From contig NZ_CP150291.1 of NCBI RefSeq assembly GCF_038051985.1, forward strand, positions 2,790,001 to 2,854,000: a stretch of 64,000 nucleotides of DNA. Reading direction: 5' to 3'. This DNA comes from Solibacillus sp. FSL H8-0523. GTDB taxonomy: Bacteria > Bacillota > Bacilli > Bacillales_A > Planococcaceae. The number at the start of each line of letters is the position of its first letter. Within the stretch, counting starts at the first letter, position 1. Below, one piece after another: positions 10,785 through 19,965 of the stretch. The position numbers and the translations under genes were made by a program. The notes under the pieces were generated by a model. It did not search any database. It saw only the letters and a program-made list of their open reading frames with translations, and had not been told where the DNA came from.

Positions 10785-10922
10785 TATGTGACATCCTTTC
10801 TCGTACTGTATTTATACACTGTATAGTTTAGACAAATTTACGATAGAAAACAATGCTTAATCGCAACGTTTTCGAAATTATGTCATACTCAACGATAAAT
10901 GTGTCATATTATTTAGGGAAAA

Positions 10923-11159
10923 CTAGTTTATTAAGCCTTTTTGTGCTTTTACTTGTTTTAATTTTTCTGGTGTAACATCGTTTCCTTCTTCATCCACAAC
11001 TTTTACGTGCTCGATTGTATCACGCATTGTTGTACGGAATACATCTAAATATTCTTTACGTAGTGCTGTGCGTTCTTTTGCTAATTCCTCTGTTAATTTT
11101 CCTTCTTTTGCTAATTTCGATAACTCATTAATACGAGCTAATTTCTCTTTTGATAACAT
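10923..11159 (-). CDS. ynzC: UPF0291/DUF896 family protein YnzC
   Basis: MLSKEKLARINELSKLAKEG is the typical N-terminus of this 78-residue, helical hairpin family of Firmicutes. In B. subtilis ynzC belongs to the LexA-regulated yneA-yneB-ynzC operon; its biochemical role is not established. The longer frame would add residues encoded across the insertion junction at 11208, and the AAAGGTGAG site supports 11159. Here an inserted element separates it from yneB, so its original SOS read-through may be altered. Confidence 0.92.
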   Translation of the reverse strand: MLSKEKLARINELSKLAKEGKLTEELAKERTALRKEYLDVFRTTMRDTIEHVKVVDEEGNDVTPEKLKQVKAQKGLIN

Positions 11160-11207
11160 GTTGTTCTCACCTTTCTTATATCCAATACTACAAAGGTATA
11201 AAAAAAC

Positions 11208-11224
11208 GACTTGAAGAGCAAGTA
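11208..11224. repeat. Right copy of the 17-bp repeat (ynzC side)
   Basis: This copy of the attachment-like core has lost the matching 5' arm of the hairpin but is directly followed, on the minus strand, by G and seven T, consistent with the ancestral terminator tail. Confidence 0.75.
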
Positions 11225-11366
11225 AAACCGCTTTGCATTTAAACAATAATTGCATATCGTATGGTGTTTTATAGCCTTTACTAAGAATGTTAGTTTAATG
11301 ACATTGATAGTGATGAATATTTTTGGGGCTAGATTGGGTAAAAAAATCGCTTGGCAGCACGGTTGA

Positions 11367-11453
11367 TCAGATGAAAAACAGGCCCTCTAAAAAAGAGTGG
11401 CCTGCTCCGCCTTTCCAACCTTTGTGTTTAATATCATCAATGCACTGTTTCAA
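11367..11453 (-). CDS. Possible 28-aa micro-ORF in the insertion (TTG start)
   Basis: TTG at 11453 follows GGTGAG by five bases and opens a frame MKQCIDDIKHKGWKGGAGHS continuing to LFFI. The glycine-rich centre has phage-like small-protein character, but it overlaps the terminator hairpin at 11374-11403 and has no recognised domain. Confidence 0.3.
   Translation of the reverse strand: MKQCIDDIKHKGWKGGAGHSFLEGLFFI
11374..11403 (-). terminator. Terminator inside the yneB/ynzC insertion
   Basis: On the minus strand CAGGCCACTCT pairs with AGAGGGCCTG with one bulged base, followed by TTTTTC. It lies after the micro-ORF cluster, implying that the insertion carries its own minus-strand transcript. 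Confidence 0.75.
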
Positions 11454-11475
11454 TAAAACTCACCAATTTTTTAGG

Positions 11476-11565
11476 CTAGCCCTTACGTTTATTAGCCGCG
11501 GCTTCAAGTAACAACATACGATTACGTAACGATAAAGCACGCCATTCTTTAACTGTGATAAACAT
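11476..11565 (-). CDS. Micro-ORF of 29 aa in the insertion
   Basis: The frame MFITVKEWRALSLRNRMLLL continues to ANKRKG and has a strong, well-placed site (GAGGGGGATTGGGGC before ATG). It is basic and amphipathic, without a recognised domain. The good start signal makes translation plausible although the product is very short. Confidence 0.45.
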   Translation of the reverse strand: MFITVKEWRALSLRNRMLLLEAAANKRKG

Positions 11566-11683
11566 GCCCCAATCCCCCTCTATGATTTAATTAGCTACGC
11601 ACTATTGAAACGCATATTAGGCACTTCTATTAGTTCCAAATACGATAAATGCGCGTAGGTATATTTTTGTAAACCTGCTGTAC

Positions 11684-11872
11684 TTAGTTCTTAACGTTAG
11701 TTCCGATTAATTTCCGTTTGAAATTAGCAGCAATCGCTTTATTTAAATGTGCTGTATAAGCCAACATCCGCCGAGCTCGATGCTCTAGGTAATCATTTGC
11801 GCGATAACGTTCAGCGTACTTTTTATAAATGGCTTTACTAGCCTTAATTCGCTTGTGTGTACGTTTCTTCGT
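11684..11872 (-). pseudogene. Basic 62-codon frame with ACG where the start codon should be
   Basis: A GAGGTGATCTAA leader is followed by ACG-AAG-AAA-CGT and an intact frame of 62 codons rich in Lys and Arg (KRTHKRIKASKAIYKKY...). An in-frame TAA lies immediately before the ACG, so no upstream start exists. The simplest reading is an ATG-to-ACG loss in a small element gene; a rare ACG start cannot be excluded. The product resembles small phage-type basic proteins only in composition. Confidence 0.45.
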
Positions 11873-12280
11873 TTAGATCACCTCGCTTATATTTAAAAAC
11901 ACAATATGTAGCACACAGCCCGTATATGCCAATTGTTCAACTTTTAATATGCATCCACATCGTATTAAGGGAATGGATTACTTACGTCAATATGGAGTGG
12001 TGTGTGCTGGATTAGTACCTTCTTAATACTTACGAATTCCCCAAGTTCCTTCCCCTGTTCTTTTGTTGCATATTTTACACCTGGAGTTTCTCAATTTTCA
12101 CTTCCAAATACTTTTGGGCATATATACGCGTTTATTTTTATGTAATTATTGAGCAAGGTTCATAGCTAGCCGTACCGGATCTATATTTTGGAGGTCATAG
12201 CAATGGTTTGTAACTAAGTTAGGTGATGGCCTTGCTAACGTTGCCGCTGCTTTAGCTATTTTAGTACCAACACTTCTATA

Positions 12281-12290
<10 letters not shown>
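11873..12290. other. Coding debris in the insertion
   Basis: This stretch has no intact gene. On the minus strand a frame reading PGVKYATKEQGKELGEFVSI and on to IDVSNPFP runs about 40 codons between stops without a start. On the plus strand a ribosome binding site (GGAGGTCATAGC) precedes an ATG that stops after four codons, while another frame then reads GDGLANVAAALAILVPTLL. These look like remnants of inactivated genes. Confidence 0.4.
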
Positions 12291-13302
<1,012 letters not shown>

Positions 13303-13318
13303 CGTATAAACCCCTTTA

Positions 13319-13345
13319 AGAATGTATGTTCGGAATGTTTGTTCT
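13319..13345. promoter_or_regulatory. Two adjacent degenerate LexA boxes near the yneA start
   Basis: AGAATGTATGTTCG (13319-13332) and GGAATGTTTGTTCT (13332-13345) each keep one good half of the consensus CGAACNNNNGTTCG. They lie downstream of the yneA -10 and could act as roadblock sites. Confidence 0.5.
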
Positions 13346-13346
13346 C

Positions 13347-13375
13347 ATAATAATACGAACATATGTTTTTGTCAA
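13347..13375 (-). promoter_or_regulatory. yneA promoter with LexA box in the spacer
   Basis: The minus strand has TTGACA (13375-13370), 17 bp, then TATTAT (13352-13347), near ideal for the housekeeping sigma factor. The LexA box CGAACATATGTTTT (13356-13369) fills the spacer, so repressor binding would block polymerase directly. Confidence 0.85.
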
Positions 13376-13384
13376 CTGTTTTCT

Positions 13385-13424
13385 CGAACCTATGTTTGCA
13401 TTTCTGTTCGCATACTGCTATACT
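13385..13424 (+). promoter_or_regulatory. lexA promoter with overlapping LexA box
   Basis: TTGCAT (13396-13401), a 17-bp spacer and TATACT (13419-13424) form the lexA promoter. A LexA box, CGAACCTATGTTTG (13385-13398), overlaps the -35, giving autorepression. Confidence 0.85.
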
Positions 13425-17427: not shown

Positions 17428-17645
17428 ATTAAATAAAGATAAGACCTCTGCAAATTAATTTTGTAAGGTTTTATTTATGCATACATAATGTTTAATTCCC
17501 CTTAGACTTCAATTAAAAAAACCGTATATCTCGTGACTTTTCTCAAGGGTAAGGAGTACTGCCAACATTACTTAAACGCCCTTGTAATCCATAATTCAAA
17601 ATTAACAGCTTTAATATAATTTCCAATGTTAGCGATTTTCTGTTA
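17428..17645. other. Non-coding left part of the glnA island
   Basis: This 218-bp AT-rich stretch has no convincing ORF, repeat or terminator. A short CAAGGG...CCCTTG pair is visible but has no U-tract. Confidence 0.5.
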
Positions 17646-18104
17646 TTATTCTTCTCTTTTCAACCAATCTTCTAATGTCATCATTTTAAAATCTTCCTGG
17701 AAATCTAATCGAATGGGAGTAATCAATTCAATTGAGTTACCATCTGGATCATCAAAGTATATTGCGGCATGTGCATGAGGATTATTAGGTAATACAAGAG
17801 GTTGATGATGTTCATCAAAGCCAAATGAAGTGCGAATAGCTATTCCTTTATCATTCAACCACTTCTTAGACGAGATGATATCTTCCTGTTCAACTCGAAA
17901 TGCGATATGCCGTATAGAAGGATGATAAGGTAGCTCAACTTTATCGCTTTCCCATAACCCAAGCCAACTTTCTCCTTTTACAATCCAGAAAAAAGCTAAT
18001 TTATCCTGCTTATAGGCCATTTCTAATCCCAAATTCCGATAAAATGAAATTGAGTTTTCTAGGTTACTGACTGGTAAATGCGCTTCATATAAACCTTTTA
18101 TCAT
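17646..18104 (-). CDS. VOC (glyoxalase/bleomycin resistance) family protein
   Basis: The 152-residue protein has two VOC half-modules: an N-terminal LYEAHLPVSNLENSISFYRN and a C-terminal AIYFDDPDGNSIELI. His9 in EAHLPVS, His58-type residues in IRHIAFRV and Glu in SIELI are the usual metal ligand positions. Members act as dioxygenases, glyoxalases, epimerases or drug-binding resistance proteins; the reaction here is not readable. The start at 18104 has AGAGGTG; a longer frame from 18206 lacks a site. It is cargo of the glnA island and its original promoter context is unknown. Confidence 0.82.
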   Translation of the reverse strand: MIKGLYEAHLPVSNLENSISFYRNLGLEMAYKQDKLAFFWIVKGESWLGLWESDKVELPYHPSIRHIAFRVEQEDIISSKKWLNDKGIAIRTSFGFDEHHQPLVLPNNPHAHAAIYFDDPDGNSIELITPIRLDFQEDFKMMTLEDWLKREE

Positions 18105-18235
18105 AGTAACACCTCTATCATGAATATTACATTCATAATACCAATATAAGGGAATATTCACTTCATTCAAAGGTCTTATATTATTGGTGCGCCACTTTGA
18201 TGGCATTTGCGCGATTGAACGTTCACCTCGTTTGA

Positions 18236-18469
18236 TTAAATCATAATAAAGCTTTATATATTAAACATGAACCCCTGCCCATTCACTCAACAAGGCATAC
18301 ACACGTTGCAATACTTATTGAAGCGAACTGGGATTTGAAATCTATCGCAGATCGTTTAGGCCATAGCTCCCCTGTAACAACGTTGAATACTTATGCACAT
18401 ATTTCGAATAAAGTTGCAGAAAAAAGTATGGATAGTTTCGAAAAATACATGGAGAAATTGGGGCAATAA
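18236..18469 (+). pseudogene. int: C-terminal fragment of a phage-type tyrosine recombinase (integrase)
   Basis: The 77 codons follow a stop codon and have no start. They read HSTRHTHVAILIEANWDLKS, then ADRLGHSSPVTTLNTYAHI. This contains three catalytic residues of the family: Arg in HSTRH, His in LGHSS and the nucleophile Tyr in TLNTY. The N-terminal DNA-binding and core domains are missing, so it is not functional on its own. It points toward the glnA-proximal repeat, as integrases commonly lie next to their attachment site. Confidence 0.88.
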
Positions 18470-18473
18470 AAAG

Positions 18474-18517
18474 TTTGTGGGCAATTTGTGGGCAAACCAA
18501 AAATGGCTTGTGGGCAA
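18474..18517. repeat. Tandem 11-mers next to the integrase fragment
   Basis: TTTGTGGGCAA occurs twice back to back (18474-18484, 18485-18495) and a third time with one change (CTTGTGGGCAA, 18507-18517). Between an integrase stop and its attachment site, such repeats are good candidates for arm-type integrase-binding sites. Confidence 0.7.
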
Positions 18518-18525
18518 GAAAAAAG

Positions 18526-18559
18526 AAAAAAGCGTTGGAGCATAGAGCCCCAACGCTTC
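18526..18559 (-). terminator. Current glnA terminator, supplied by the island
   Basis: AAGCGTTGG pairs with CCAACGCTT around an eleven-base loop, and the minus strand continues TTTTTTCTTTTTT. It overlaps the attachment repeat only at its first bases, so most of it belongs to inserted DNA. Confidence 0.88.
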
Positions 18560-18598
18560 ATCTATTAATACATTTTTAAGTATTGATCGCGTTCCCAT
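18556..18598. repeat. glnA-proximal copy of the 43-bp attachment repeat
   Basis: Covers the last eleven codons and stop of glnA; partner of 17385-17427. Confidence 0.85.
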
Positions 18599-19899
18599 TG
18601 GTGTACTGTTGAACGGTACATGTCGAACTCGATTTCTTTTGCTTCTTTAAAGTTTGCATAGATGTGACCACCTAATGCAGATTGAACAACTTCATCTTTT
18701 GCAAGTAACGCAAGGGCGTCGTCTAATGCAGCTGGTAAGTTGTCGATACCATTTGCTTGGCGCTCTTCTTCGCTCATTACATAGATGTTGCGGTTAATTG
18801 CTGGAGGTGGTGTCATCGCTTTACGAATACCTTCTAAACCAGCCTCTAAAATAACAGCCATTGCTAAGTAAGGGTTTGCAGATGGATCCACCGAACGTAC
18901 TTCTACACGTGTTGATACACCGCGTGAAGATGGGATACGGATTAGTGGAGAACGGTTTTGTGCAGACCATGCTACGTAACATGGCGCTTCATAACCCGGT
19001 ACTAAACGTTTATATGAGTTGACAGTTGGGTTTGTAATCGCTGTAAAGCCTTGAACGTGCTTTAACACACCCGCCATGAATTGCATCGCTGTTTCAGATA
19101 AACCAAGTTCTGTTGACTCATCGTAGAATGCATTTTCTTTGCCTTTGAATAATGACACGTTAAAGTGCATACCCGATCCAGCTTCACCGAATAATGGTTT
19201 TGGCATGAACGTTGCGTGTAAGCCGTGTTTACGAGCGATTGTTTTTACTACTAATTTAAATGTTTGGATGTTGTCACAAGCTGTGATGGCATCTGCATAT
19301 TTAAAGTCGATTTCATGTTGACCTGGTGCTACCTCATGGTGAGAAGCTTCGATTTCAAAGCCCATTTCTTCAAGTTCAAGAACGATATCACGACGGCAGT
19401 TTTCACCTAAGTCCGTTGGTGCTAAGTCGAAGTAACCACCGTTGTCATTTACTTCTAACGTTGGCTCACCTTTTGCGTCTAATTTGAATAAGAAGAACTC
19501 TGGCTCAGGCCCTAAGTTGAAGTCTGTGAATCCTAATTCTTCCATTTCCTTTAACACACGCTTTAAGTTGTTACGTGGGTCACCAGCAAATGGCTCACCT
19601 TTTGGATTATAAATATCACAGATGAAACGTGCTACTTTTCCTTTTTCAGCTGTCCATGGGAATACCATAAACGAATCGTAGTCAGGGTATAAGTACATAT
19701 CTGATTCTTCGATACGTACGAAGCCTTCAATTGAAGAACCATCAAACATCATTTTGTTGTCTAGTGCTTTATCTAGCTGGCTTACTGGAATTTCAACGTT
19801 TTTGATTGTGCCTAAAATGTCTGTAAACTGTAAACGAATAAATTTAACTTCTTCTTCTTGTACAAGACGTTTAATATCGTCTTTTGTGTATTTACCCAC
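18565..19899 (-). CDS. glnA: Glutamine synthetase, type I-alpha
   Basis: The 444-residue enzyme condenses glutamate and ammonia with ATP. Family signatures include [19 protein letters not shown] (with the Arg62 that mediates glutamine feedback in Bacillus), the nucleotide site near [18 protein letters not shown], and [19 protein letters not shown]. The adenylylation-loop Tyr of the beta subtype is absent. The start is GTG at 19899, ten bases after AGGAG, giving exactly the B. subtilis length; an earlier GTG lies inside the site. It follows glnR as an operon. Its last eleven codons and stop lie in the 43-bp repeat that served as integration site. Confidence 0.97.
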
Positions 19900-19965
19900 T
19901 AAATTCCACACTCCTAAAATTGTTCAGTACCGATCGAATCGATCTTTTTATTTATAATTCACACG

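Follow-up and report, generated by a model that had tools for sequence, protein, structure and literature searches.

The 1.07-kb insert in the yneB–ynzC terminator of a Solibacillus strain as a probable decayed prophage

Decayed prophages of the lambda type carry direct-repeat attachment halves, correspond to empty sites in relatives, contain debris of phage-type genes and keep an integrase remnant at one end. The same traces are found at the intergenic region between yneB and ynzC in a 64,000-nucleotide stretch of the Solibacillus sp. FSL H8-0523 genome (NZ_CP150291.1, positions 2,790,001 to 2,854,000; hereafter the window, in whose coordinates all positions are given), the integrase remnant being present in two relatives of the window. 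The locus differs from the lambda-type pattern in two respects: its site is an intergenic terminator overlapping a promoter-like element and not a tRNA or protein gene, and the window copy has no integrase. A second point of comparison is a prophage (L172) of genome G014, another member of the family. Its full-length integrase belongs to the family of an integrase remnant found at the site in the genus (genome G002; 69% identity over 74 residues), and it carries a 29-aa gene and its neighbour that are also represented in the window. Unlike the insert in the window, this prophage adjoins a gene that we take, from its sequence, to be speB, and the yneB–ynzC site of G014 is empty. In a related genus, IME8 of Lysinibacillus sphaericus, an element of about 30 kb with its target inside yolD, is likewise a tyrosine-recombinase element at a non-tRNA site; unlike here, yneB, ynzC and a terminator are absent from the main text of that report (PMC13239906). 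In the parts of the literature consulted, yneB together with ynzC appears in connection with oxidative stress in Bacillus pumilus, with no report of this attachment site, and the texts on Solibacillus prophages and on terminator attachment sites do not report it either, which is not proof of absence. The kind of element is already known and ordinary; its target site is neat and unreported in the literature searched. We assign a probability of roughly 0.85 to the reading that the 1.07-kb insert is a decayed prophage, left by site-specific integration through a tyrosine integrase and later deletion of its genes.

On the reverse strand, yneB (12309-12965) is followed by a stretch of about 1.15 kb that looks non-coding, by ynzC (10923-11159) and by a 664-aa ORF, which we take to be transketolase from its sequence and the gene order. 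Both named genes belong to the host. yneB, which lies outside the element, encodes a resolvase N-terminal domain (PF00239) and was found in 255 of the 261 family genomes (E ≤ 1e-50). A first-pass annotation of the window had pointed to a 17-mer at both ends of about 1.07 kb, and the match is exact: TACTTGCTCTTCAAGTC stands at 12291-12307 (reverse strand, yneB side) and at 11208-11224 (reverse strand, ynzC side), where the original T-tract is kept. The annotation had added that its reading would fall if the 17-mer were a terminator sequence spread widely through the genome; in the 4.14-Mb genome it occurs at these two places only. Allowing up to two mismatches adds one match in the whole genome, the same number as in a backwards control, and at up to three mismatches the window holds three matches, a number reached by none of 100 shuffles. 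Beyond the exact 17-mer, the direct repeat lengthens to 20 of 21 nt. Between the two copies lie 1066 bp (11225-12290, no strand assigned), which are present once in their own genome and are missing from the empty sites of relatives; we annotate them as inserted DNA, a prophage remnant. Their G+C content (37.4%, against 39.6% for the window) is unremarkable.

Two features overlap in the 17-bp repeat: the 3' arm of the yneB terminator, and the first box of the promoter-like element that precedes ynzC. On the yneB side, it closes a terminator-like hairpin (12288-12325, reverse strand; minimum free energy -22.5 kcal/mol, z -4.7), which in its present form consists of the host 5' arm, the repeat copy and a T-rich tail that the incoming DNA contributed. 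On the ynzC side, the T-tract follows directly, a pairing arm is lacking and the fold is no better than chance (z 0.08). Joining the flanks in silico produces an 18-pair stem (-25 kcal/mol, z -8.6), and the outer arms AACGACTTGAAGAG and CTCTTCAAGTCGTT are complementary at 14 of 14 positions, as against 93% for the yneB-side pair. The ynzC-side copy thus pairs better with the yneB arm than the present partner does, which fits one terminator that has been split. The first-pass annotation had described the completed hairpin on one side and the unpaired copy on the other, and had taken both for a terminator split by integration; the folding calculations confirm the first two points and agree with the third.

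The promoter-like element before ynzC (11193-11221, reverse strand) reads TTGCTC, 17 nt, TACCTT, and its first box falls within the repeat. The pattern TTGCNY-N16-18-TAYNNT is present in 45 of 84 distinct 100-nt regions upstream of ynzC from the family and its neighbours, compared with a mean of 0.5 and a maximum of 3 in shuffled regions and none on the reverse strand; as the 84 regions are related, the excess overstates their independence. Eight of 15 genus genomes fit the pattern (G007 left out), six of the seven others read TTGT, and the seventh, the occupied genome G010, differs in the second box. Because the repeat covers both the terminator arm and the promoter box, integration regenerates both, one per side. 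Judged by sequence, yneB in the window still possesses a terminator-like hairpin and ynzC a promoter-like element. The terminator and the promoter are probably still functional, and occupation of the site may well be neutral or harmless to the host.

How the site looks in relatives bears directly on the integration reading: the first-pass annotation had argued that it would gain from empty sites, or from the same boundaries enclosing different or larger cargo with an integrase, and would lose if all relatives shared the 1.08 kb. The other family genomes do not have it. The genus is represented by 16 genomes, of which 11 show an empty site with a yneB–ynzC gap of 67-82 bp and one terminator-like hairpin each (by eye; five of the 11 were folded), and five are occupied. 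Four of the latter (G000, G002, G005 and G010) carry 0.8-2.9 kb; in the fifth, G007, contig ends interrupt the site on both sides, and upstream of ynzC there is a scrap that by eye looks like the one in G005. The inserts vary between genomes in length and content. Relationships within the genus were taken from pairwise identities around yneB, with no tree built: occupied G002 is 97.8% identical to empty G015 over about 650 nt, occupied G010 is 88.9% identical to empty G003, and G000 is 84-85% identical to both G002 and G015. In two cases the closest relative of an occupied genome is empty. By parsimony, this requires three or more insertions within the genus, provided that the empty sites did not arise by clean excision.

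Boundaries formed by direct repeats are present in G000, G002, G010 and G259, that is, in four of the 36 long gaps tested, with scores of 15-22 against a maximum of 13 in the controls (40 shuffles per gap). In G259, the repeat of this further insertion matches at 19 of 21 positions. The repeats of the remaining 32 gaps do not exceed the shuffled controls; these include G005, in which only the ynzC-side copy is detectable. The 36 gaps comprise selected ones and the four of the genus, with at least 15 others (g14) left out, and were measured among the matches listed. A family-wide hotspot, suggested by long yneB–ynzC gaps in other genera, was rejected on account of the gap contents and of the 32 gaps without such repeats; the long gap of G277, a genome of another genus, contains catabolic-type genes as judged by eye from ORF translations. 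Two of the longest gaps, both in g11 genomes, at L209 (G271) and at L207 with L208 (G282), span about 19-22 kb; by eye they hold biosynthesis genes of the cobalamin type, and they show no repeats. At L211 (G095, g14), phage-type small genes lie between yneB and ynzC, one of them a 50% relative of a gene of the G014 prophage, again with no flanking repeats.

Larger cargo with remains of an integrase is found in G002. Its insert of 2.8 kb, bounded by 22-bp perfect repeats, contains the C-terminus of a tyrosine phage integrase (PF00589, E 1e-7; phrog_1, E 6e-13), which is separated by about 50 bp from the repeat on the yneB side, together with more integrase pieces in the opposite orientation and an ORF matching phage repressors (phrog_3, E 1e-11). 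G010 holds a smaller integrase scrap, likewise at the yneB-side end and oriented as in G002, recognised by a 36-nt match to G002 that none of 1000 shuffles equalled; at the protein level the scrap is weak by itself (E 0.10). Together with the empty sites and the other repeat-bounded inserts, these two remnants uphold the earlier proposal of a site-specific integration in which the incoming DNA supplied the new T-rich tail. Moreover, the window shares an arm with the G002 insert next to the yneB-side repeat (12260-12289, reverse strand), 25 of 30 nt being identical with 0 of 1000 shuffles as high. The ynzC-side arms of the two are in register, a match that is not significant (147 of 1000 shuffles as good). 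No match beyond chance connects the yneB-side arm of the window with G010 or G259 (235 and 546 of 1000 shuffles as good), and for the ynzC-side arm the corresponding values are 818 and 576, and 63 for G005. The insertion in the window probably used an integrase of the same kind as those left in G002 and G010. Phage records with a relative of the G014 integrase number 2,238, the best of them at 41%. Scanning viral contigs for the attachment core returned 78 stretches, about what we estimate chance to give for 15 fixed bases, and no intact prophage with this site; yneB was not found in these contigs. One of the 78 stretches, L105, was considered as a prophage using this core and taken as chance: its integrase relative is distant (31%), about 290 bp separate the end of the match from the core, and the sequence is GC-rich.

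What remains inside the insert was previously described as micro-ORFs and a terminator only. This description is correct insofar as no integrase was found, either among the ORFs of the insert or by search against the fetched junctions, and it falls short insofar as two ORFs and a gene scrap have relatives in phage settings. All three of these recognisable pieces lie on the reverse strand. The first, a small phage-type ORF at 11687-11872, is an open stretch of 62 codons with no ordinary start codon here, and it was found in four of 261 family genomes, the window's own counted. It is 48-52% identical to genes at three loci: one in G032, adjoining a tyrosine integrase near smpB (smpB assigned by eye), and two in G116, namely in a Mu-like phage, identified by its Mu transposase and GemA domains, and on a short contig. 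Further relatives are present in three viral contigs and, interrupted by two stops, elsewhere in G010. The second piece, a 29-aa ORF at 11476-11565, shares 83% DNA identity over 77 nt with part of the G014 prophage, whose domains include terminase, portal, protease-capsid and integrase. The third, a gene scrap at 11388-11453, matches the gene that comes after the 29-aa ORF in the same prophage (55% identity across 22 aa, with E 0.003 when only 42 fetched junctions were searched), so that the order of the two is identical. The short G116 contig likewise holds relatives of the 62-codon ORF and of the scrap with their order kept (by eye). A terminator-like hairpin with a T-run lies at 11366-11410 (reverse strand; -20.9 kcal/mol, z -4.7).

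Searches with the insert itself added little. No structural phage gene was recognised inside it, PHROGs gave no significant match for its pieces, and 50,697 phage records contained, at the limits used, no relative of the 62-codon ORF or of its G014-type neighbour; consequently, the phage nature of the pieces is drawn mainly from the genomic settings of their relatives. The G014 gene related to the scrap does fall into a PHROGs family, one of unknown function (phrog_23736, E 7e-4). The insert DNA had zero matches among phage and plasmid records, and Rfam gave none at E ≤ 1 for 10800-13400. Near the yneB-side end, 12201-12278 (forward strand) encodes a short hydrophobic frame behind a GGAGG stretch, for which PHROGs has no match.

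The features expected of a prophage are thus unevenly preserved in the window: end repeats, a one-copy empty site in relatives and remains of three small genes whose relatives occur in phage-type settings are present, and an adjacent integrase is missing. As no integrase stands beside its attachment half, we class the insert as a remnant and not as a working prophage. In the course of events that we propose, a temperate phage with a tyrosine integrase would have recognised the terminator between yneB and ynzC, and strand exchange within a core containing TACTTGCTCTTCAAGTC would have left one core copy at each end. The yneB-side copy would then complete the yneB terminator with a T-rich tail of phage origin, and the ynzC-side copy would retain the first box and the remainder of the ynzC promoter-like element. 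Deletions would subsequently have removed nearly all prophage genes, the integrase included; the two ends, one terminator and remnants of three small genes would be what survived. The decayed island that the first-pass annotation had considered is in this way borne out, and sharpened to a decayed prophage by the phage-setting relatives of the contents and the integrase remnants in related genomes. The remnant in the window is probably immobile now; that it keeps working attachment halves and could be excised or exchanged in trans by a G002-type integrase, at a site where occupation is neutral, seems to us quite improbable.

A remnant of another tyrosine-integrase element, be it an integrative and mobilizable element, a conjugative element or a phage satellite, is an unlikely origin and still the strongest competitor. 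The integrase domains found (PF00589, Arm-DNA-bind_4 and Phage_int_SAM_3) are common to phages, satellites and conjugative elements, and a tail-like piece in the G002 insert gave a weak match only (E 0.06), and under the limits applied no relative of it appeared in the set of 50,697 phage records. Against such an origin stand the settings in which relatives of the small genes occur, namely the G014 prophage, the integrase neighbourhood in G032, the Mu-like phage of G116 and viral contigs. A look by eye through the listed ORFs of the genus inserts showed no relaxase or conjugation genes. We hold it very improbable that the insert is a very small non-autonomous element, still equipped with its attachment halves and mobilised in trans by the integrase of a phage, as had also been suggested before. 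In favour of this, the two copies of the repeat show no mismatch across 17 bp and a terminator-like hairpin lies within the insert, but several near-identical copies would be expected and there is a single one in the genome, its contents resemble phage debris, and the inserts of different genomes differ in length and content. Moreover, any DNA match to the insert is confined to seven of the 260 other family genomes, the longest being 149 nt; outside G014, G010 and the own genome, the matches in the other five genomes span 25-47 nt and are taken as chance. Least credible of all is that the resolvase-like yneB protein, whose gene directly adjoins the insert and carries the resolvase N-terminal domain, moved or duplicated this DNA, or that a replication error duplicated the terminator, given that yneB is equally present in genomes with an empty site, that no second copy of the insert exists in the genome and that two relatives have tyrosine-integrase scraps at the site.

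With the decayed prophage as the preferred reading, the locus represents an intergenic attachment site that was used, by parsimony, at least three times in one genus, and whose core combines a terminator arm with part of a promoter-like element; this dual role suggests why occupation of such a site can be harmless. For annotators, the 1.07 kb are most likely phage debris and not a novel gene or regulatory region. In Bacillus, yneA and yneB are members of the SOS regulon. If this membership holds here, the site would lie directly behind an SOS operon, with a possible link to induction. Elsewhere in the window, 18269-18463 (forward strand) encodes another C-terminal fragment of a tyrosine integrase (E 1e-7); no exact 13-bp direct repeat was found around it (17601-18700). 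Close to this fragment is a terminator-like hairpin that follows the gene at 18565-19911 (reverse strand), by sequence a glutamine synthetase.
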